A DNA stretch of 64,000 nucleotides from Corynebacterium timonense (GTDB lineage Bacteria; Actinomycetota; Actinomycetes; Mycobacteriales; Mycobacteriaceae). Positions within the stretch are counted from its first letter, which is position 1. Each line of letters starts with the position of its first letter. Below the pieces are notes generated by a model that was not told the origin of the DNA, made no database searches, and saw nothing but the letters and a program-made list of their open reading frames with translations. Both the position numbers and the translations under genes were made by a program. Positions 5,376 to 41,088 of the stretch are shown here, one piece after another. Where the stretch lies: assembly GCF_900105305.1 (NCBI RefSeq), contig NZ_LT629765.1:2108001-2172000 (forward strand). Reading direction: 5' to 3'.

Positions 5376-5438
5376 GGCTCTGGGGTTTTGCGACCTGGGG
5401 TGTCGCTGAGGTCGACCAAGGCCCACAACCCCAAAAGC

Positions 5439-5491
5439 GGAACTCTAAAAATCGGCGATATCTGGCCCGGAACGCGGATTTTTAGGGCTCC
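5439..5491. terminator. Rho-independent terminator, copy 1
   Basis: Long inverted repeat GGAACTCTAAAAATC...GATTTTTAGGGCTCC followed by GTTTTTA. It lies 64 bp after the stop of the plus-strand aminotransferase-like gene. A-rich and T-rich flanks let it act on both strands. Confidence 0.8.
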
Positions 5492-5512
5492 GTTTTTAGG
5501 GGGAAGGAGCGC

Positions 5513-5643
5513 CTACACCGTCAGCACGATCTTGCCGGTACGCGCCTCGGCGTCCAGGTGCTTGTGCGCCTCGGCAGCTTCGGCAAGAGGGAAGGTCCGC
5601 GTCACGTTCGCTTTAATGCTGCCGTCCTCGAGCAGCGCCCAGA
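5513..5643 (-). pseudogene. 3' fragment of a second quinone oxidoreductase gene
   Basis: Reads as the last 43 or so residues of the oxidoreductase (WALLEDGSIKANVTRTF... to RTGKIVLTV, stop at 5513-5515). Differences from the intact neighbour are few and mostly conservative (GSI for GTI, AEA for AQA, DAEA for DTDA). No start or upstream part remains. It is a remnant of a tandem duplication rather than a working gene. Confidence 0.85.
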
Positions 5644-5673
5644 AACCCGCAGGCACCCACAACTCCAAAAACA

Positions 5674-5724
5674 GAACTCTAAAAATCCGCGATATCCGGC
5701 CCCGAACGCGGATTTTTAGTGTTC
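5674..5724. terminator. Rho-independent terminator, copy 2
   Basis: An 18-bp stem with one mismatch (GAACTCTAAAAATCCGCG against CGCGGATTTTTAGTGTTC) is followed by TGTTTTTA. It lies immediately beyond the stop of the intact quinone oxidoreductase and is a stronger stem than copy 1. It probably works bidirectionally between the converging genes. Confidence 0.85.
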
Positions 5725-5746
5725 TGTTTTTAGGGGGAAGGAGCGT

Positions 5747-6703
5747 CTACACCGTCAGCACGATTTTGCCGGTACGCGCGTCGGTGTCGAGGTGTTTGTG
5801 CGCCTGCGCAGCCTCGGCGAGGGGGAAGGTCCGCGTCACGTTCGCTTTGATGGTGCCGTCCTCGAGGAGCGGCCAGACGTTCTTCACGGTGTCCGCGACG
5901 ATCTCGGCTTTCATCTCCACGGGCCGGGCGCGCAGGGTGGTCGCGTGCACGGACTGGCGGCGCGGCATCATGCGCCCGAGGCTGAGGGTGCCTTTCGGGC
6001 CGCCTTGCAGGGCGATGACGACGAGGCGACCGTCCATGTCGAGGCACTTGATGTTGCGTTCGAGGTAGTCGCCGCCGACGACGTCGAGGATGATGTCGCG
6101 GCTTCCCTCGAGTTCCTCGAGGAAGTCCTGCTCCTTGTAGTTGATGAGGATGTCGGCGCCGAGCTCGCGGCAGTAGTCGAGCTTCTCCTGGCTGCCGGCG
6201 GTGACGGCGACCTCGCAGCCGAGCGCCTTGCACAGTTGGATGGCGAAGGACCCGATGCCGCCGGAGCCGCCGTGGATGAGCACGCGGTCGCCCTTCTTCA
6301 CGCCCGCGACCATGCCCAGGTTGGACCACACGGTGGCCGCGACCTCGACGATGCCCGCGGTGTGTTCCAGGCTGAAGCCCTTCGGCACGGGGGTGAGCTG
6401 GCCTTCCGGCACGGCGACGTACTCGGCGTAGCCGCCGCCGGCGAGGAGGCAGCCGACTTCTTCGCCGACGGTGCGGCCGGTGTCGCCGGCGTCAACGATG
6501 GCGCCGGCGCATTCGAGGCCGATGATCTCGGAGGCGCCCTTCGGCGGCGGGTAGTTGCCCTGGGCCTGGACGAGGTCGGCGCGGTTGACGCCCGCGGCCT
6601 TGACCTGGACCAGAACGTCGCCGGGGCGCAGCTCAGGGGTGTCGACCTCGGTGAGCGCGAGGGAGTGGGGGTCGTTGGGATCGTGCAGGGTGATTGCCTT
6701 CAT
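5747..6703 (-). CDS. NADPH:quinone oxidoreductase (MDR family, PIG3-like)
   Basis: Zinc-independent medium-chain reductase of 318 residues. The N-terminal GroES-like domain carries NYPPPKGAS, typical of the TP53I3/PIG3 branch, followed by a Rossmann domain with HGGSGGIGSFAIQ that binds NADPH. It likely reduces quinones in the cytosol. An ATG start at 6703 has TAATCT 8 nt upstream, indicating a leaderless transcript. Its 3' end and terminator were duplicated in tandem (see 5422-5877). An equivalent gene (Rv3777) neighbours Rv3778c in mycobacteria, so the context is conserved. Confidence 0.9.
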   Translation of the reverse strand: MKAITLHDPNDPHSLALTEVDTPELRPGDVLVQVKAAGVNRADLVQAQGNYPPPKGASEIIGLECAGAIVDAGDTGRTVGEEVGCLLAGGGYAEYVAVPEGQLTPVPKGFSLEHTAGIVEVAATVWSNLGMVAGVKKGDRVLIHGGSGGIGSFAIQLCKALGCEVAVTAGSQEKLDYCRELGADILINYKEQDFLEELEGSRDIILDVVGGDYLERNIKCLDMDGRLVVIALQGGPKGTLSLGRMMPRRQSVHATTLRARPVEMKAEIVADTVKNVWPLLEDGTIKANVTRTFPLAEAAQAHKHLDTDARTGKIVLTV

Positions 6704-33299: not shown

Positions 33300-34564
33300 C
33301 CTCGACCGTCGCGGAGCGCGAGCCCAGAGCGTTCTTCCGCAAGTTCGCGGTGGCCTACTTTGGCACGTGCCTCGTGTGGGTCGCGCCCTCCCAGCTGTTG
33401 CTGGCCAACCAGATGATCGCGGTGCGCCCCGACACCTACGAGCGCGCCCTCGCGCTGCTCATGTTGTGCGGCGGAGCCACCGCCGTGGTGATGAGCCTCG
33501 TCGTCGGCGTCATCTCGGACCGTTCGCGGCTGTCCACCGCGTCTACGTGGGCGGCGCGGTGGGGCAAGCGTTTCCCGTGGGTTGTGGTGGCGGTGCCTGT
33601 GGCGTCGATAAGCATGCTGCTCATGGCGGCGACCCCCGGCTATTGGGCGCTGGTGGTGCTGTGGTGCCTGGTGCAATGCTTCGTCGCGTTTATGACGAAC
33701 AACCTGTTCACCATCACCGCCGACGTCGTGCCGCAGCGCAGGTTCGGGGCGATCTCGAGCGTGCTCGGCGTGACGTACGTGCTGGGGCTGGTGGGCGGCA
33801 CGGCGGTGGCAAGCGTCCTCGAGCTCAGTTGGGCCTACATCGTCACCGCGCTCGTGTTCCCGTGGTTGGTGCTGCAGCTGGGCTACGGCCGCGGCGCCAT
33901 CGACCCAGCCGTGAACGAATCGACGCTGGACGGGCAGGCCGAGCTCGGGGCCGTCGTCCTCGGGTCGGGCGACGCCCCGGCCGAAACCCTCCCGGCGCGC
34001 GCGTACCGCAACTACTGGACGGTCTTTGCCACGCGCTTTGTCATGCACGCCACCAATTACACCGCCCTGTTCTACCTGCTGTACTACCTGCGCGACCACA
34101 TCGGCGTCGCCGACCCCGACACGTGGGTGCTCATCCTCACCATCGTCTTCGCCGGGGTCACCATGGCCACCGCCGCGGTCTCCGGGGTGCTCTCCGACAA
34201 GCTGGAGCGGCGGCGCATTTTCCTCATCGCGGCGGCGCTGACCATGGCTCTCGCCACCGGCATGATGACCATCGCTGGCAGCATCGGCGCCGTCACCGCG
34301 GCCGCCGCCGTGCTCGGGCTCGCGTGGGGCGTGTGGTCCTCGGTCGAGCAGGCGACGATCAACGAGTCGCTGCCCTCGCGCCGCAACCGCGCCCGCGACG
34401 TGTCCGTCATGACGCTCGCCCAAGGCGTCGCCAACATGGTCGCCGGCCTCCTCGCCGCCGCCGCGCTGCAGTTTTTGGGCGGGTACCCCGGCCTCTACCA
34501 GGCCTGCGCGGCCGCCTGCGTCCTCGCGGCCGGGCTGGCGCTGTTCATCCGCTCGTCGCGCTAG
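33296..34564 (+). CDS. MFS transporter coupled to the GH1 glycosidase
   Basis: Protein of 422 residues with about twelve membrane spans and MFS loop motifs (GVISDRSR between TM2 and TM3, GVLSDKLERRR in the second half), resembling the GPH/SLC45-like sugar transporters. GTG 33296 overlaps the glycosidase stop (GTGA). It probably imports the glycoside hydrolysed by the upstream enzyme. Its TAG stop lies within a CTAG that is also the edge of an IS481 remnant, so the last codons might have been altered by that insertion. Confidence 0.85.
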   Translation: MTSTVAEREPRAFFRKFAVAYFGTCLVWVAPSQLLLANQMIAVRPDTYERALALLMLCGGATAVVMSLVVGVISDRSRLSTASTWAARWGKRFPWVVVAVPVASISMLLMAATPGYWALVVLWCLVQCFVAFMTNNLFTITADVVPQRRFGAISSVLGVTYVLGLVGGTAVASVLELSWAYIVTALVFPWLVLQLGYGRGAIDPAVNESTLDGQAELGAVVLGSGDAPAETLPARAYRNYWTVFATRFVMHATNYTALFYLLYYLRDHIGVADPDTWVLILTIVFAGVTMATAAVSGVLSDKLERRRIFLIAAALTMALATGMMTIAGSIGAVTAAAAVLGLAWGVWSSVEQATINESLPSRRNRARDVSVMTLAQGVANMVAGLLAAAALQFLGGYPGLYQACAAACVLAAGLALFIRSSR

Positions 34565-35037
34565 ATGTACTTTCCCGTGACGTTGTGAACGCGTTGTGCG
34601 GGGGTGAGGCCGTCGATGACGGTGTGGGATCGATGGTCGTTGTAGTCGTGGATAAACTCCGCGTGCGTCTGCTGCCGGGCCTTTTCGGTGCTGCAGGGGC
34701 GAATGTGGGCCGATTCCTGCTTGAGGGTGCGGTTGAACCGCTCGACCGTGCCGATAGTCTGCGGCCGGTACGCCTTGGTGTCAACATGCTTAATCGCACC
34801 CGGGGCAGCGTTGAACGCCGTGGAACGGCAGCAGGCTCCGTATATCCGTTATCACCCGGGTCACGTCGATGCCTTGCTCGGTGAAGAACTGGCAGGCACG
34901 CCGCATAAACCCGGCGGCGGTGTCTTTCTTCTCGTCGGCCAAGGTTTCCGAGTACACCAGCCCCGAATAGTCGTCGACGGCGTGATGCAGGTAGGAATAC
35001 CCGCGCCCAGCGATCCTGCGCGAAGCCTCGCCCGCGC
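34561..35037 (-). mobile_element. IS481-type remnant 1 (3' part of transposase, frameshifted)
   Basis: Minus-strand coding for the C-terminal half of an integrase-core transposase: GYSYLHHAVDDYSGLVYSETLADEKK, then after a frame break near 34840 KHVDTKAYRPQTIGTVERFNRTLKQE... ending GLTPAQRVHNVTGKYI and TAG. The HTH and first catalytic region are missing. Its terminal CTAG overlaps the stop codon of the MFS gene. Confidence 0.88.
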
Positions 35038-35056
35038 TGCTCACCGCACTGAAGAG

Positions 35057-35179
35057 ATGCCGCTGACGTTCCTGGGTTGGTTCGAGACCTTTGTTCCTTT
35101 CGTCGCCGGTGCCACCTGCGCCCTGCTCATGCTCGGCTGGCGTGGCATCGCGAAGCTCGCCGTGTCGAGGCGCTTTTAA
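35057..35179 (+). other. Possible truncated membrane-protein end
   Basis: Short open frame of 40 codons (MPLTFLGWFETFVPFVAG... to AVSRRF) with one hydrophobic segment, located between the IS481 remnant and the HNH gene. Its TAA overlaps the HNH gene stop. It could be the 3' end of a gene cut by the insertion sequence or a small protein in its own right. Confidence 0.3.
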
Positions 35180-36420
35180 ACCCAGCTGAGCTCGTTGAAC
35201 TCTTCCAGCGTCCGGGCGTCGTCGTTGCGCACCGGCAGCCCGCGGTCTGTGCTGACGTAGCGCACCCCACCCGGGCCCAGGAAATGAAAGTCCCCACCGT
35301 CGCGCAAAATCGTGACGTGGTTGTCGCTGACGAGGCTGTGGCACGCCGAACACAACGGCAGCAAGTTGTCCAGGTCCGTCGGCCCGCCGTCCGCCCAGTC
35401 GTGGACGTGGTGCATTTCCATAAAGCGCGTGTGACTGCACCCGGGCATCGCGCACTGGTGACGCCACATGAGCATCAGCGCGTTGACCTGGGCGTCGGAG
35501 GCAAGCCGAAACGAGCGCCCACTGTTGAGCACCAGCCCTTTATCGTCGACCCTGTTGATTCGGTAGTGGGCGTTGGCGAGGAAGTTTTTCACCGCCTCTG
35601 AGGGCGCACCAGGGTTGTAGGGCAGGTAGGCCTTTCCGTCGGTGGTCATAACGACATTGACGTGCGCCCCCGGTGCGCGCAACGGGTTACGCGGCCGCGA
35701 CAACGTCATGTTGACCATACCCATAAACGCGCTAACCAGCACTTCCCCGATGGGCAGGCCGAAACCGGAGCAGCCGCGTGTTTTCTTATCCTGGCGGTCC
35801 ATTTCAGCGTCGATACGCTCCGGATCCACTGTCCCGTCGTTGCCTGCTAAGGATGTCCAGTCCACGTCGTGCCAGGCGAGTTCCCCGACCTTCATCGCCG
35901 CCATCACACGCGCGCCTTCCGCCGCGTTGAAATCCGCCCACAGCTTTATACGCCCATCCGGCGCGGCTTTTAGACGCACGTAGGACGTCCTCGTCGCTTT
36001 CTGTGCTGGCTGGCGGAATTGCAGCAGCGCGATCTCCAACTCGTGGAACGTCATGGTGCAGGCCAGCTCCACCAGTTCAGCCTCGTTGTCCTTTGTGAGC
36101 AGTGGCAGTATCAGTCTGACCTTGGAGTAGTTTGTTCGCCCTTCCAAGAATGCTTGTGCCATCACCTCGAAGCGCAGCATTGCGCGGGCAACCCTGACGT
36201 ATTCGTGGGCGGTGGAGTTCGGTACCGCGATGCTCCTGACCAGCCATAATGCGGTAGTTTGTGCGCCGAACTGGGGGGCGAGCCCGAGGACGTCGAAAAG
36301 TGCTATGGCGTAGAGTATCTGCGCCTTGCGGCGCGAGAATACGCCGAACCCTTTTTCGATGGTGTGCGCGATATGTGCGGGTGCGCTGTCCCTGCTGACG
36401 GTGGTCGGTGGTGTGTCCAT
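35176..36420 (-). CDS. DUF222/HNH endonuclease-domain protein
   Basis: Protein of 414 residues of the 13E12-repeat-like family common in actinobacteria. An N-terminal DUF222 helical region (VFSRRKAQILYAIALFDVL..., LPLLTKDNEAELVELA) is followed by a C-terminal HNH nuclease finger (CAMPGC...FMEMHHVHDWADGGPTDLDNLLPLCSACHSLV) with the Cys pairs and His. ATG 36420 has GGGGGAG just upstream and a TATACT -10 at about 36460-36465. The upstream region leads straight into the 45-bp repeat array once the IS256 element is ignored. The biological role of this family is unsettled. Confidence 0.88.
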   Translation of the reverse strand: MDTPPTTVSRDSAPAHIAHTIEKGFGVFSRRKAQILYAIALFDVLGLAPQFGAQTTALWLVRSIAVPNSTAHEYVRVARAMLRFEVMAQAFLEGRTNYSKVRLILPLLTKDNEAELVELACTMTFHELEIALLQFRQPAQKATRTSYVRLKAAPDGRIKLWADFNAAEGARVMAAMKVGELAWHDVDWTSLAGNDGTVDPERIDAEMDRQDKKTRGCSGFGLPIGEVLVSAFMGMVNMTLSRPRNPLRAPGAHVNVVMTTDGKAYLPYNPGAPSEAVKNFLANAHYRINRVDDKGLVLNSGRSFRLASDAQVNALMLMWRHQCAMPGCSHTRFMEMHHVHDWADGGPTDLDNLLPLCSACHSLVSDNHVTILRDGGDFHFLGPGGVRYVSTDRGLPVRNDDARTLEEFNELSWV

Positions 36421-36514
36421 TGCTCCCCCAAGCGTGTCGATCGTGTGTTTGATTGACAGTATAACGACGCGTCGGACATGTGGGTTGAGCTGGATAAAGG
36501 CAGCTTTTCGACGT

Positions 36515-36553
36515 TTGCATAGCGCGCGTGTTTGAACGCGTCGAACTATGCAA
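36515..36553. repeat. Inverted octamer pair at the left edge of the repeat array
   Basis: TTGCATAG (36515-36522) and CTATGCAA (36546-36553) form an inverted pair spaced by 23 bp. CTATGCAA is the start of the 45-bp array unit and is also the target site duplicated by the IS256-family element. This links the nuclease-gene upstream region to the array. Confidence 0.75.
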
Positions 36554-37994
36554 GAGGGTGTCAGGTGTTTTGTGTGTGAGGCTCTGATCCAGAAGGAGTT
36601 TCACTGATAATGACTACCGTGTCACCGAAGAAAGGCCATGACCCGAGCAGGGTCAACGAGATCAGCGCGAAGCTGATGGAAAACCCGGAAATCGCCGCAC
36701 TGATCGGCGAGCTATCAACCTCCGTCGACGATGCCAGCGACCTGGTCAAAGGTCTTTTGCAAGCCTCGATCAACGCGGGTCTGCAGGCGGAGATGGACGC
36801 CCATTTGGGGTACGGGCACTCAGATCGCGCGGCCAAAGCCCAGGTAAGCCCCTCAAACGGTGGCAATCACCGCAACGGGTCGTACACCAAAACTGTGGGC
36901 ACCGGCTACGGCCCGGTGGATATCACAGTGCCTCGGGATAGAGCGGGCACGTTTCACCCGGTCATGGTGCCTAAAGGGGCACGCCGGCTGACAGAGCTCG
37001 ACGACATGATCGTCTCGCTCTACGCCGGCGGCATGACGGTACGCGATATCCAGCACCACCTGGCATCGACCCTGGCGGTGGACATCAGCCCGGATACCAT
37101 CAGTACCATCACCGATGCGGTCCTCGATGAGGTGATGGTGTGGCAAAACCGTCAGCTCGACGAGTTCTACCCGGTCATTTTCCTCGACGCGCTACGGGTG
37201 AAAATCCGTGACGGCCACCGGGTGGTCAATAAAGCCTGCTACATGGCTGTTGGCATCGACATCGACGGGACCAAACACATCCTGGGCTTGTGGATCGCCG
37301 ACAATGAAGGGGCCGCATTCTGGGCATCCGTGTGCGCGGACCTGGCGAACCGTGGAGTCAATGACGTGTTCATCGTCTGCTGCGACGGGCTTACAGGCCT
37401 GCCTGAGGCCGTGGAAGCGACCTGGCCGAACTCGATGGTACAAACCTGCATCGTGCACCTGATCCGGGCTGCCAACAGGTGGGTGTCCTACCAGGACCGC
37501 AAATCTGTATCCAGCGCACTGCGCAAGGTCTACACCGCACCGAACGAGGACGCCGCTTGCGCCGCACTCGATGCCTTCGAAGCCTCGGAACTGGGGCGGA
37601 AGTACCCCCAGTCGGTGAAGGTCTGGCGTGACGCGTGGGAGAGGTTTATACCGTTTCTGCAGTTCCCGCCTGCAGCTCGCCGGGTGCTCTATACCACCAA
37701 TGCCATCGAGTCGCTTAACGCTGAGCTGCGGAAAGCGACCCGCAACCGTGGCCAATTCCCCACGGATGCTGCGGCGTTGAAGACGCTGTGGTTGATGGTC
37801 TGCAACATCGAGGACAAACGCGCCGCCCAACGCGCGAAAAAAGCGAAGCGGGCAATCGACTGCAACGGCTATATTGAAGGGGCGAAAACCTCAGGGTGGA
37901 AACAAGCCATCAACCAACTATCCGTGGCCTACCCAGACCGGTTCGCCAACTACTTGTAAACCAAGCCCCCGCACACAAACAAACGGACACTCTC
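36554..37994 (+). mobile_element. Intact IS256-family insertion sequence with 8-bp target duplication
   Basis: 1441-bp element bounded by imperfect inverted repeats of about 28 bp (left GAGGGTGTCAGGTGTTTT, right end reading GAGAGTGTCCGTTTGTTT on the minus strand). The flanks are identical 8-mers CTATGCAA at 36546-36553 and 37995-38002. One intact transposase gene fills it. A perfect target duplication and an intact gene indicate recent transposition. Confidence 0.95.
36610..37959 (+). CDS. IS256 (Mutator)-family transposase
   Basis: DDE transposase of 449 residues with all three acidic blocks: FLDALRVKIRDG, IVCCDGLTGLPEAV and TTNAIESLN. The C(2)H signature CIVHLIR of the Mutator superfamily is present. 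Start ATG 36610 has AAGGAG about 10 nt upstream. The frame is undisturbed, so the enzyme is likely active. Confidence 0.97.
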   Translation: MTTVSPKKGHDPSRVNEISAKLMENPEIAALIGELSTSVDDASDLVKGLLQASINAGLQAEMDAHLGYGHSDRAAKAQVSPSNGGNHRNGSYTKTVGTGYGPVDITVPRDRAGTFHPVMVPKGARRLTELDDMIVSLYAGGMTVRDIQHHLASTLAVDISPDTISTITDAVLDEVMVWQNRQLDEFYPVIFLDALRVKIRDGHRVVNKACYMAVGIDIDGTKHILGLWIADNEGAAFWASVCADLANRGVNDVFIVCCDGLTGLPEAVEATWPNSMVQTCIVHLIRAANRWVSYQDRKSVSSALRKVYTAPNEDAACAALDAFEASELGRKYPQSVKVWRDAWERFIPFLQFPPAARRVLYTTNAIESLNAELRKATRNRGQFPTDAAALKTLWLMVCNIEDKRAAQRAKKAKRAIDCNGYIEGAKTSGWKQAINQLSVAYPDRFANYL

Positions 37995-38556
37995 CTATGC
38001 AATGCATACCGATCAACGCCCGACCGTCGAGCGCCCGGCTATGCAATGCATACCCCCGGCCGCATGCGGACGGGCCCGAAACTATGCCATGCATACGGAT
38101 CAACGCCCGCGCGTCGAGCGCACCGACTATGCAACGCATACGGATCAACCCCCGACCACCAAGCGCCGAAACTATGCAATGCATACCGATCAGCCCCCGA
38201 CCGTCGAGCGCCGCAACTATGCAACGCATACCGATCAGCCCCCGACCGCCGAGCGCCGCAACTATGCAATGCGTACCGATCAGCCCCCGACCGTCGAGCG
38301 CCGCAACTATGCAATGCAGACCGATCAGCCCCCGACCGTCGAGCGCCGCGACTATGCAATGCATACGGATCAACGCCCAACCGTCGAGCGCCGCGACTAT
38401 GCAATGCATACGGATCAACGCCCAACCGTCGAGCGCCGCAACTATGCAATGCATACACCCCAGCCCCAAGCGGACGGGCCCGAAACTATGCACTGCATAC
38501 CGATCAACCCTCGACCGTCGAGCGCCGCGACTATGCAATGCATACGTACCGACCCC
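37995..38556. repeat. 45-bp palindrome-containing tandem repeat array (12.5 copies)
   Basis: Units begin at 37995, 38039, 38082, 38127, 38172, 38217, 38262, 38307, 38352, 38397, 38442, 38486 and 38531 (last one cut). Each opens with CTATGCAATGCATACC, which holds the palindrome TGCAATGCA-like core, and most continue GATCAGCCCCCGACC then GTCGAGCGCCGC, containing the palindrome CGACCGTCG. Units 2 and 11 are a second type with GCGGACGGGCCCGAAA. Because 45 is divisible by three, open frames run in several phases on both strands; these are by-products. The left edge was hit by IS256 and the right edge by IS21. Confidence 0.95.
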
Positions 38557-38812
38557 TGTTCGCGACGGTCGAAAAGTAGCCCAAAACGCTCCTCGAAAAG
38601 TAGCCCACCCGAAAAAAATGAATGGGTGATTTCATTGGAGGAATGGGCGCAGATCCGGTACCTGCGTGGGCAGGGTCTGTCATTGAGGAAGATCGCGGCC
38701 GAAGTCGGCTGTGCGAAGAAGACGGTGGAGAAGGCTCTGGCTTCAGATTCGCCGCCTTGTTACAAGCCACGGGACGCCAAAGGCACGGGTTTCGATCGGT
38801 TTGAATCGCACG
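38557..38812 (+). mobile_element. IS21-family left end remnant
   Basis: Begins TGTTCGCGACGG and carries two copies of TCGAAAAGTAGCCCA (38569-38583 and 38593-38607), the multiple terminal repeats of IS21 elements. The start of istA follows. The rest of istA and istB is gone; an IS481 tail abuts at 38813. Confidence 0.88.
38626..38812 (+). pseudogene. istA: istA fragment (IS21 transposase N-terminus)
   Basis: About 60 codons from GTG 38626: VISLEEWAQIRYLRGQGLSL, RKIAAEVGCAKKTVEKALAS, DSPPCYKPR. This is the HTH domain of IstA. The frame then runs into the neighbouring IS481 remnant and stops at 38832. Confidence 0.85.
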
Positions 38813-38876
38813 CTAGGTGTACTTCCCCGTGACGTTGTGAACGCGTTGCGCGGGGGTGAGGCCGCCGATGGCGGTG
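38813..38876 (-). mobile_element. IS481-type remnant 2 (last 20 codons only)
   Basis: Minus strand encodes GLTPAQRVHNVTGKYT followed by TAG, the same transposase end as at 34561 and 62472. Its edge is again CTAG (38813-38816). Only the extreme end survives. Confidence 0.85.
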
Positions 38877-38921
38877 ATGGTGCCGCTGCGCGCCCTGGTT
38901 TTGTCGTGAGCCTAAAGCGCT

Positions 38922-39175
38922 GTGATCACCAACGTCGCCGGACTGGCTGCTCGGGTGGCGGCACTCGTAGTGATGGGCGCCACGTACTCCTGGTTCATCC
39001 CCACCGCGCGGGCTACAGGGCGGGTCTCCGGTTCGTCGGCGCGGAGTACGCAGCAGAAAGTGCTGCAAACCTCGGGAACGGTACCGTTGCCTGGGCTGCG
39101 GCTACCGCTACCGCGTGTGGGGTCGCGCTGTTCGCCGCCGCACGCCCTGACGTTATCAATGCTCCACTGCAATGA
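38922..39175 (+). pseudogene. Frameshifted small membrane protein
   Basis: Frame 1 from GTG 38922 encodes VITNVAGLAARVAALVVMGATYSWFIPT and then loses coding character. A second frame picks up HRAGYRAGLRFVGAEYAAES... and VAWAAATATACGVALFAAARPDVINAPLQ to a TGA at 39173. Together they would make one protein of about 84 residues with two helices. The break is near 39000. No family recognised. Confidence 0.5.
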
Positions 39176-39236
39176 ATCTCCGCCGTGCCTAGTATCGGTA
39201 TTCAAGATCCTGACCCATTCCCGCAGGGAGATAGTG

Positions 39237-40220
39237 ATGACCCGCGCAAGAAAAGTCGCTACCGGCTGCGGCGCCGTGTTCGCCGTTATCCTCATAGCCC
39301 TCGCGGCCGCCGCCTACACGTGGGGCCCGGCGACCACCGCGATCTTCACGGGAAAAACTCAATATGTGATCAAGCCCTCGCCCCAGAAGTACGCGAAAGA
39401 CGTCATCCGGATCGTGGAGACTCTCGGTATCTACGCCGAGTCTGACGAGTTCACCGCCGCGAAAGCCACGGCCCTGGAGGAGATCAAGGGTGCCACCTCC
39501 TACGAGGAGACGTACGAACCGCTGCGCGCGGTGATCAAGGCGGCGGGAGGCAAGCACTCCAACATTCTCACTGCGGAAGACGAAGCAGCCGAGGACCCGG
39601 ACCAGCTCGCACCCGCTGTGGAAGCCCGCGGCAACATCGCTTTCGCTACGGTCCCGGATGTCACCCGCCACGACGACGGGCAAGCCTACGCCGACACGCT
39701 TACCGAGGGGATCCTCACCCACGCAACGTGCGGCGCGATCGTTGACCTGCGCGGCAACGGCGGTGGCGATATGGGCCCCATGGTCGCGGGAATCTCACCG
39801 CTGCTTCCTGACGGCCCCGTGCTCTCCTTCGTCTCCCGCACCAGCACCACCGACGTGACCGTCGACGGCAACTCCGTCACCGGTGGCGGCACCCCTGTGA
39901 CCACGCAGGGAGGCAAACGCGAAGTACCGGTCGCCGTGCTTGTCGACGCAGAAACCGCCTCCTCAGGCGAAGCCACCATGCTCACTTTCCGCGGCCTCGA
40001 CCGGTCGCGCAGCTTCGGCGAGCCCACGGCGGGATTCGCATCCGCAAACATGGTCGTCGATCTTTACGACGGCGCCAGCGTGATGATCACCACCGCCAAA
40101 GATAGAGCACGCACCGGCGAGGAGTTCGCCGAAGACCCCGTCCGGCCGGACGTCGCCACGAATGACGCCGAACGCGAAGCCGTCGCCTGGCTGGAGGGAC
40201 AAGGCTGCTCGACGCAGTAG
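39237..40220 (+). CDS. S41-family (C-terminal processing type) peptidase
   Basis: Protein of 327 residues with an N-terminal membrane anchor or signal helix (GAVFAVILIALAAAAYTWG). The S41 catalytic fold is visible: IVDLRGNGGGDMGPM binds substrate, and the nucleophile Ser lies in DAETASSGEATML with a Lys/Arg further on. There is no PDZ domain, so it belongs to the simple tail-specific protease-like group. It likely acts outside the membrane. ATG 39237 has GGGAG upstream. Confidence 0.85.
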   Translation: MTRARKVATGCGAVFAVILIALAAAAYTWGPATTAIFTGKTQYVIKPSPQKYAKDVIRIVETLGIYAESDEFTAAKATALEEIKGATSYEETYEPLRAVIKAAGGKHSNILTAEDEAAEDPDQLAPAVEARGNIAFATVPDVTRHDDGQAYADTLTEGILTHATCGAIVDLRGNGGGDMGPMVAGISPLLPDGPVLSFVSRTSTTDVTVDGNSVTGGGTPVTTQGGKREVPVAVLVDAETASSGEATMLTFRGLDRSRSFGEPTAGFASANMVVDLYDGASVMITTAKDRARTGEEFAEDPVRPDVATNDAEREAVAWLEGQGCSTQ

Positions 40221-40329
40221 CTATCCGCCTGCCCGGGAGCGACGAGCATCGCCGCGGCGGCGAGGAACTCGCGGGCGGGCAGCGCGAGCACCCTCCGATC
40301 CCCATCAGGATTGAGACTGTGGGATACAT
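40221..40329 (-). pseudogene. Frameshifted copy of the 60-residue membrane protein gene
   Basis: Reads TVSILMGIGG, shifts by one base, then VLALPAREFLAAAAMLVAP. It aligns with VASVLMGIGGILVLASNNFL, ASAAMLVAAG of the intact gene at 40413-40595. It is a decayed tandem duplicate. Confidence 0.7.
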
Positions 40330-40412
40330 CTCTCTATCGTCGATCCGCCGCTGACGGTAGACGTCGTCGACCTCAAACAGCCTGCCGAGTAGAGCTCGAT
40401 TGAGGGAAAAAG

Positions 40413-40595
40413 TCACAGCTGGGAAGAATCACCCGGCTCCAGTGGGCTTCTTTTTAAACACCGGTAATGGTCAGCCGCCAAACCAGCAGCAACCAGCATC
40501 GCAGCCGACGCCAGAAAATTATTGCTTGCTAACACTAAGATGCCCCCAATTCCCATCAGTACGGAAGCAACCAAGTAAAGATGTGCCATGTTCAT
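40413..40595 (-). CDS. Small membrane protein, 60 residues
   Basis: Two hydrophobic stretches (LYLVASVLMGIGGILVLA and NFLASAAMLVAAGLAA) and a charged tail. The start lies 7 bp downstream of the secreted-protein gene stop, so it is probably in one operon with it. A broken duplicate follows at 40221. Function unknown. Confidence 0.65.
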   Translation of the reverse strand: MNMAHLYLVASVLMGIGGILVLASNNFLASAAMLVAAGLAADHYRCLKRSPLEPGDSSQL

Positions 40596-40602
40596 TTCAC
40601 AT

Positions 40603-41088
40603 TCACTCCCCGTCCCTTGATCGCGAGCTGAAGCAGTACTCGGCTACCCCAGCTACCCCGATAGTTTCAGCACCGAGGTCACGGAGTGCGCCGCCGGTAC
40701 GCTGTATGCTCGGCCAACTGAAATTGTGCGCCCTCACCTGGTAAAACGCAGCCTTGAGCCCACCGCGCTGCTGAATGCAACGCTTAATCGTGAGGATCTT
40801 TGCGGCGGGGATCACAGTTGAACCGATGACCCCCGGCACCGGCTGTTTCTGCAGCCCAATAGGGAAAACAGTTGTATTGGGATACTTTTCTCGAAGCCAT
40901 TCTGCGGTGGCTTCGTCCCCTTCAGCCAGCACTTCGACTAGGTCATTGGACATTCCAAGATCGTTGTGCGCAGCTGTAGGGGTGATCGACGCGGCGTGAG
41001 GGTTATTGCTTTGAGGCCCACTCGCTGGTGCATGTGGCGTCAGAAATATCGACGCAGACAACAGGCACACTGAGACGCGCTTCTTCAT
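40603..41088 (-). CDS. Secreted hypothetical protein
   Basis: Protein of 161 residues with a typical signal peptide (MKKRVSVCLLSASIFLTPHAPASG). ATG 41088 is backed by a strong GGAGGT 5 nt upstream, and the longer frame is rejected. The mature part (DLVEVLAEGDEATAEWLREKYP, ...CIQQRGGLKAAFYQVRA) contains two cysteines and resembles no family I know. It shares a 253-bp divergent region with the amino-acid permease gene, with TATAGT at about 41176-41181 as a possible -10. Confidence 0.7.
   Translation of the reverse strand: MKKRVSVCLLSASIFLTPHAPASGPQSNNPHAASITPTAAHNDLGMSNDLVEVLAEGDEATAEWLREKYPNTTVFPIGLQKQPVPGVIGSTVIPAAKILTIKRCIQQRGGLKAAFYQVRAHNFSWPSIQRTGGALRDLGAETIGVAGVAEYCFSSRSRDGE

Follow-up and report, generated by a model that had tools for sequence, protein, structure and literature searches.

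What is a long row of palindromes doing beside a nuclease gene? The question is raised by a 64,000-nucleotide stretch of the Corynebacterium timonense chromosome (the window; C1:2108001-2172000 of a single-contig genome of 2.63 Mb, here G000), in which a tandem array of 45-bp repeats (37995..38545, no strand assigned) lies upstream of a gene encoding a 414-residue DUF222/HNH nuclease (35176..36420, minus strand). The repeats seem to serve the product of the neighboring gene, a DNA-cutting protein, as a series of docking sites; related bacteria have their own versions of both parts, which points to a possible target for a large, functionally uncharacterized protein family. We consider it probable that array and gene form one self-contained module, in which the protein reads a 13-bp inverted repeat (TATGC-N3-GCATA in this genome) by means of a domain of the ParB/Noc fold, at the row upstream of its gene and at further clusters. 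The association of the two parts, their position, co-distribution and co-variation, the predicted fold and the intact nuclease motif were all observed by computation.

A search of the genome with the array gave six matches at five places, and a search with the protein gave five copies at those places (97-100% identity; 97-99% for the four besides the window's own); in all five of these near-identical cassettes the array lies 5' of the gene start. Tandem Repeats Finder reported a period of 45 across 38076-38545 and of 135 across 37995-38546, and splitting at the core gave 13 copies of CTATGCAATGCATAC (variants counted) at steps of 43-45 bp, in agreement with the 45-bp tandem array beside an HNH gene described in an earlier reading of the sequence (the original prediction). 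The perfect palindrome TATGCA[AT]TGCATA occurs seven times in the window, as compared to approximately 0.0001 expected from a first-order Markov model. The 15-bp core is 97% conserved (57 units, five arrays) versus 76% for the remaining positions (in the 35 units of 45 bp), and its left half, TATGC, is unchanged in all 57 units. A second palindrome, CGACCGTCG, had been taken as part of the design of every unit; this view was not supported, as it is exact in only 5 of the 12 spacers in the window and 10 of the 52 in the five arrays, whose spacers are mainly of two types and differ in order between arrays. These spacers are common within and between the arrays, unlike the unique spacers of CRISPR, and no cas gene was found among the four neighboring frames scanned, so the earlier dismissal of CRISPR held.

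The array had been thought to begin at 37995, with an insertion sequence (IS) at either edge. Its original start is in fact at 36546; the left IS lies inside the first unit, not at the array edge, and only the right one, near 38553, was correctly placed. The left element (36554..37994, plus strand) is of the Mutator family (Pfam Transposase_mut, 8.9e-117; transposase at 36610-37959), with inverted ends and an 8-bp duplication. The left half of the first palindrome, CTATGCAA (36546..36553, plus strand), is now one copy of this target duplication, and the same letters are read from the sequence on the other flank (37995-38002). Insertion into the first palindrome placed a copy of CTATGCAA at each end of the element; before this event, the array began 126 bp from the start codon. 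Sister arrays are uninterrupted, and the four sister cassettes have no gap of this kind. The inverted unit start reported at 36515 is indeed present, and is better described as a single half-site between gene and array, TTGCATAG (36515..36522, plus strand), whose position is the same in the other four cassettes and whose sequence there differs by 0-1 changes.

HNH was found in all 25 aligned members of the protein family and DUF222 in 22 of them at E up to 0.1 (best 5.3e-10; Pfam PF01844 and PF02720, respectively). The open frame in the window matched HNH at 5.8e-9, and its DUF222 match was weak (0.0064, below the family cut-off). The only other family matches of the 25 proteins were weak ones to helix-turn-helix (HTH) profiles; no transposase family in Pfam, NCBIfam or PHROGs was found at the thresholds used, save a weak HTH_Tnp_4 match (E 0.055) in one of the 25. 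A search of the PDB by sequence gave no match up to E 10. Alignments of the whole model to known folds covered residues about 27-141 and 298-414 only (50 matches listed). The first of these segments (35998..36342, minus strand) is predicted to fold like the DNA-binding domain of ParB/Noc; a comparison of ParB sequence profiles scored no better than decoys, and no ParB CTPase domain appeared among the best 50 fold matches of the whole model. Within this segment, residues 68-83 (36172..36219, minus strand), which contain Arg76, were assigned as the predicted recognition helix on the basis of secondary structure and of the column scan described below. The HNH motif (residues 315-365; 35326..35478, minus strand) was located by alignment and HNH fold matches. 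Residues C323, C328, H337, H338, N352, C357, C360 and H361 were invariant in 25 of 25 aligned proteins, and presumably play the roles generally assigned to them in HNH nucleases.

Relatives of the gene were sought in 201 genomes of the genus, of which 50 held one at E 1e-60 or better. A profile search of contigs yielded no relative when started from the single protein and 52 loci when started from the alignment, 49 of which were scanned (L156-L158 were left out); the two collections overlap in species. The relatives carry upstream palindromes with the same center, GCAATGC or GCAGTGC, and with other arms (TCCGCAATGCGGA, TCCGCAGTGCGGA and TGCGCAATGCGCA). Such a palindrome was present within 700 bp upstream of all 19 closest relatives and within 700 bp downstream of none of them; it was likewise missing from the 700 bp downstream of all 49 loci, and from the 700 bp upstream of the 30 remoter paralogs (29 Corynebacterium records and one of Propionibacteriaceae). 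In the first collection, four remoter loci (L053-L056) did not show a palindrome of this type. At least two copies of one inverted repeat were found in the 600 bp upstream of 16 of the 30 remoter and 18 of the 19 closest loci; in the 600 bp downstream, the counts were one of 30 and none of 19. At least three near-palindromes stood upstream of 11 of the 30 remoter paralogs and downstream of none, and all 11 fit TNNGC-N3/4-GCNNA (for example, TATGC-AGCT-GCATA, TATGC-AGG-GCATA, TCCGC-CCG-GCGGA and TCTGC-GGCC-GCAGA). Two remoter loci carry GCGCAGCTGCGC twice; the fit was judged on other loci. Another example is C. stercoris, where TCCGC-N3-GCGGA occurs upstream with eight different centers. Fixed arms with a varying center are the pattern that two protein halves on two half-sites would leave.

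The surroundings of the gene are less constant. When ten neighbors upstream and ten downstream were scanned, they differed between species groups, with some related species sharing one; at ten loci they include proteasomal ATPase, carbon-nitrogen hydrolase, cation efflux, Nramp and amino-acid kinase genes, and no neighbor that might be the target of the array was common to all ten. Since the neighbors vary between species groups, the array travels with the gene and not with its surroundings.

The same association was observed at the level of whole genomes. At least three copies of TCCGCAATGCGGA were counted in 22 of the 27 genomes with the closest subfamily and in none of the 174 others, where the maximum was two (Fisher p 6e-25, without correction for kinship). 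Of the five exceptions, four carry a variant, TCCGCAGTGCGGA four to seven times (G035, G070 and G113) or TGCGCAATGCGCA three times (G195), in each case partly upstream of the HNH gene; the background of this variant search was one TGCGCAATGCGCA each in the comparison genomes G060 and G025, with other mixed forms at one to a few copies per genome. In the fifth (G103), TCCGCAATGCGGA occurs twice, upstream of the gene and again within it. The window's own type, TATGCAATGCATA, is all but confined to its genome, with 46 copies there and one in the 200 other genomes of the genus together. The original prediction was to be given up if the repeat proved common in genomes lacking an HNH gene nearby, and these counts leave it standing. 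When all 50 genomes bearing a relative were counted instead, the contrast was 22 of 50 versus 0 of 151. A tree built by a quick method placed the 20 rows with the motif (the window included) in a clade of 23, together with L126, L127 and L128. The site of another paralog group, ATGCAGCTGCAT, was searched in 26 genomes: at least three copies were found in G179, G158, G002, G038, G077, G049 and G121, all of which have an HNH relative, one each in G069, G161 and G013, and zero in the remaining 16. A second HNH relative is also present in at least four genomes without ATGCAGCTGCAT (G016, G189, G129 and G059), and a reversed control of this sequence occurred once in four of the 26. Viral contigs gave 72 and 26 stretches with a 15-bp match, one of them with two matches; among those listed, none shows an array.

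The site type varies together with the protein. Proteins whose site was known (32 in number) were compared, first all columns against half-site type and then residues 15-135 against the presence of a purine or a pyrimidine at base 2 of the half-site. Arg76 was found in all nine proteins with a purine at this base and in one of the 23 with a pyrimidine (p 3.6e-7, uncorrected), by far the best of the columns scanned (next best p 5.8e-4). After thinning at 75% identity the figures were 6/6 versus 1/18 (p 5e-5), and at 60% identity 6/6 versus 1/14 (p 2e-4); on five independent pairs of the tree, four went in the same direction and none in the opposite one (p 0.125). In ParB and Noc, according to the portion of PMC7383237 consulted, the site is switched by residues in and near the recognition helix. 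A difference in site type is also seen within the window's genome, in which the five cassettes have the TATGC type, and a sixth, remoter HNH gene (L027, G000:C1:1545277-1547799; 61-69% identical and split by another IS) has the TCCGC type, with two TCCGCAATGCGGA upstream (1547942 and 1547998). Taken together, co-occurrence, constant 5' position, co-variation of site and protein and the predicted ParB/Noc-like domain favor one of the functions originally proposed, namely that the array would provide sites for the HNH protein; this support comes from sequences and a structural model.

Several points limit this interpretation. Within the window's own group, the TATGC type is known from a single genome. 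The border of the closest subfamily (L125/L126 by E-value; 361 bits) was chosen after the motif had been seen, G117 was placed among the 27 genomes on a partial match beside its sites, and kinship between species inflates the counts. In a sample of 30 DUF222 loci from across the phylum, no excess of repeated palindromes was seen at the stringency used: repeated perfect palindromes occurred at two loci in the kilobase before the domain and at none in the last kilobase, and three near-palindromes at none before the domain and two after it. This test is weakened because the stretch was measured from the domain match and not from the start codon; in view of its outcome, no claim is made beyond the relatives obtained by the alignment-based search. 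For four remote HNH matches in C. timonense itself, the 1.5 kb preceding the matched part lacked repeated perfect palindromes. In the data searched, the signal is limited to Corynebacterium, save the one Propionibacteriaceae record (L139), with two palindrome copies.

Sites were also found in clusters of 2-10 far from the gene. Such dispersed sites number three to some forty per genome and occur only in genomes with the HNH gene; their spacers, as well as array periods, vary from species to species. As judged from rough gene prediction, all sites lay outside genes at 16 of 24 distant loci, and at the other eight one or more lay inside. The notion that the clusters are graves of lost genes was rejected, as no remnant of the HNH gene matched at E 0.01 in any of 25 loci. 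In 12 genome/motif sets, 28 of 69 distant clusters lay no more than 100 kb from a gene of the matching type, versus 8.8 expected at random places; individually, three of the 12 sets fell below p 0.05, and G117 had no cluster within this distance. The sets were entered by hand, with approximate chromosome lengths for four genomes, one of the 20 G117 sites missing, and sites with up to two mismatches included for the window's genome; multi-contig or partly listed sets (among them G158, G021, G121, G002, G038, G077 and motif A of G179) were left out. Part of this closeness is likely due to shared ancestry, because five genomes (G158, G002, G038, G179 and G049) hold ATGCAGCTGCAT clusters at like distances, about 40 kb on one side and 30 kb on the other. 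Both types, TATGC and TCCGC, are present together in two clusters of the window's genome (1533.8 kb and 2107.5 kb); at G000:C1:2107531-2107840 (L012), about 160-470 bp before the window, four TATGCAATGCATA and four TCCGCAATGCGGA are interleaved. Clusters mixing TCCGCAATGCGGA and ATGCAGCTGCAT, the sites of two HNH paralog groups, were noted at G158:C1:939693-940292 and G179:C1:1602680-1603438.

In the mechanism that we propose, the HNH protein would bind the 13-bp palindrome as a symmetric complex, two halves at a time, through its N-terminal ParB/Noc-like domain. The row of sites 5' of its own gene would act as a center of nucleation and self-regulation, at which the protein gathers and its own expression is held down, and this would keep an active HNH nuclease scarce and anchored. 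The other clusters, mostly intergenic, may be further docking places. In the boldest and least supported step, the sites might be multiplied and spread by repair after the protein has occasionally nicked or cut them. Such cutting must be rare, weak, restricted to nicking or triggered, because the nuclease end looks intact and yet the genome bears dozens of sites; rare cuts and their repair would explain the fast change in array length and the spread of sites, most of all near the gene. Only tentatively do we extend this to the Corynebacterium DUF222/HNH proteins at large, which might be a new class of site-reading nucleases, composed of a ParB/Noc-type reader and an HNH cutter, with a palindromic code for each paralog group, that multiply their own binding sites and spread them through the chromosome. 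If true, this class would represent a REPIN-like system assembled from unrelated components, and some of the 13E12 family would have its first assigned function.

An explanation that is compatible with the docking-site module, and which we regard as possible though doubtful, is that the palindromes are short mobile repeats multiplied by the HNH protein, as REPINs are by RAYT transposases. The dispersal of sites in gene-bearing genomes only, the variation of spacers and periods, the interleaving of a new TATGC type with an old TCCGC type in the distant clusters of the window's genome, and the excess of clusters near the gene, as a cis-preferring enzyme would leave, all speak for it. However, no strand-transfer or copy events were seen, the sites are few in copy number, clusters frequently take the form of arrays instead of single insertions, and the closeness to the gene, significant in few of the individual sets, may be old linkage retained by related species. 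A homing-type process, in which the nuclease cuts palindromes in DNA devoid of the cassette or array and repair copies both gene and array in, is unlikely. It would account for five near-identical cassettes in one genome and for the intact HNH motif, but many intact sites share the chromosome with the gene and would be destroyed by a free cutter, and the apparent IS remnants beside several cassettes may be a simpler cause of copying.

The remaining alternatives are less probable still. Arrays at promoter distance upstream could be operators for some unrelated regulator of the host under whose control the nuclease genes have come by chance. We consider this option quite improbable, as the site differs among the HNH copies of one genome and varies with a residue in the helix of the HNH protein itself. 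There is little to be said for RNA hairpins or terminators: the whole array does fold far better than shuffles (z -4.3 and -9.5 for the two strands) and a TCCGC-type site can give a strong hairpin (-9.9 kcal/mol), but good folding is expected of any tandem inverted repeat, and the constant part of the window palindrome alone gives a weak five-pair hairpin of -2.7 kcal/mol. Moreover, Rfam gave no match at E up to 1 across 34500-41000, no terminator-like site was found within the array, and centers may vary (L153). Equally slim is the chance of a neutral tandem repeat carried along with the cassette. Array length varies among the five cassettes (9-13 cores), as such a repeat might; against this stand the conservation of the core relative to the rest of the unit and the related cores, with other spacers, upstream of the gene in other species.

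The docking-site module resembles several known systems in part. The operator of KorB is a repeated, 13-bp odd palindrome, read by a ParB-type domain and used in self-regulation; the likeness is to its general description, and KorB is a plasmid protein without a nuclease. Of the HNH nucleases of the IscB/McrA type, the protein shares the HNH domain only: its IscB equivalog score was 28.8 bits, compared to a cut-off of 175, in a match limited to the HNH part. With ParB-parS and Noc-NBS, in which changes in or near the recognition helix switch the site (PMC7383237 and PMC8429893, portions consulted), it shares the predicted DNA-binding fold and palindromic sites, several per genome; the sites here are 13-14 bp long, of other sequence and upstream of the protein's own gene, and an HNH nuclease replaces the CTPase domain, as judged from the best 50 fold matches. 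RAYT/TnpA-REP systems, as described in the parts of PMC8266576 and PMC8049555 consulted, consist of one chromosomal gene for a DNA-processing enzyme and dependent dispersed palindromes whose type co-evolves with it. The HNH module similarly pairs an enzyme gene with cognate palindromes, both beside the gene and dispersed, but its enzyme is not an HUH/Y1 transposase and its sites are 13-14 bp inverted repeats with a 3-4 bp center, often arrayed and low in number. It would be a second example, independent of RAYT-REPIN, of palindromes that coexist with a DNA-processing partner.

The 13E12 proteins of mycobacterial REP13E12 regions belong to the same Pfam family and are multicopy, whereas the phylum-wide DUF222 sample showed no palindrome excess. 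For these regions, the consulted portion of a 2026 preprint (PMC13061034) states that a defined biological function is lacking; the portions of PMC10841881 and PMC10123090 consulted concern DUF2220. DUF222 genes were found in 48 of 119 genomes sampled across the phylum, and the present results provide one branch of this family with predictions of a DNA-binding domain and of the sites of several subfamilies, together with a specific candidate residue. A search of the open-access literature, which included the letters CCGCAATGCGG and had most subscription papers outside its scope, found no report of an association between palindrome arrays and HNH proteins. A defense system was considered and rejected, the sole PADLOC match, to one of three proteins, scoring 13.3 bits.

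The IS around the cassettes were also inspected. The cut-off end of a second element (38553..38832, plus strand; its right limit, set by an open-frame end, is approximate) gave weak resolvase-type HTH matches under the cut-offs and is, we assume, IS21-like. A similar IS tip adjoins the array in three of the five cassettes, the window's included. Another element, to which we would give the same name, lies inside an array of G042 (L092, from about 2330), with CCCTG at both ends. Insertion sequences may favor these arrays. By reading, and not by family search, apparent IS remnants were noted beside several cassettes, and these may explain how the cassettes were multiplied. The sequence 3' of the gene is also common to the cassettes and includes a small open frame that was read completely in one copy. 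This membrane-type frame of 115 residues (L009:6711-7058, minus strand) is convergent with the HNH gene and part of the repeated cassette; three copies lack a stretch in its middle.

Two minor observations were also made. The sequence GTTTCACGTGAAAC, which we take to be parS-like, stands 0.6-1.2 kb before the matched part of several HNH genes (L038, L040, L041, L043, L045 and L049), and one species group may therefore keep its HNH gene close to the chromosome's own ParB sites. Within the window, two more tandem duplications were found at 424-669 and 5422-5877, with units of 126 and 234 bp, respectively, in approximately two copies each.
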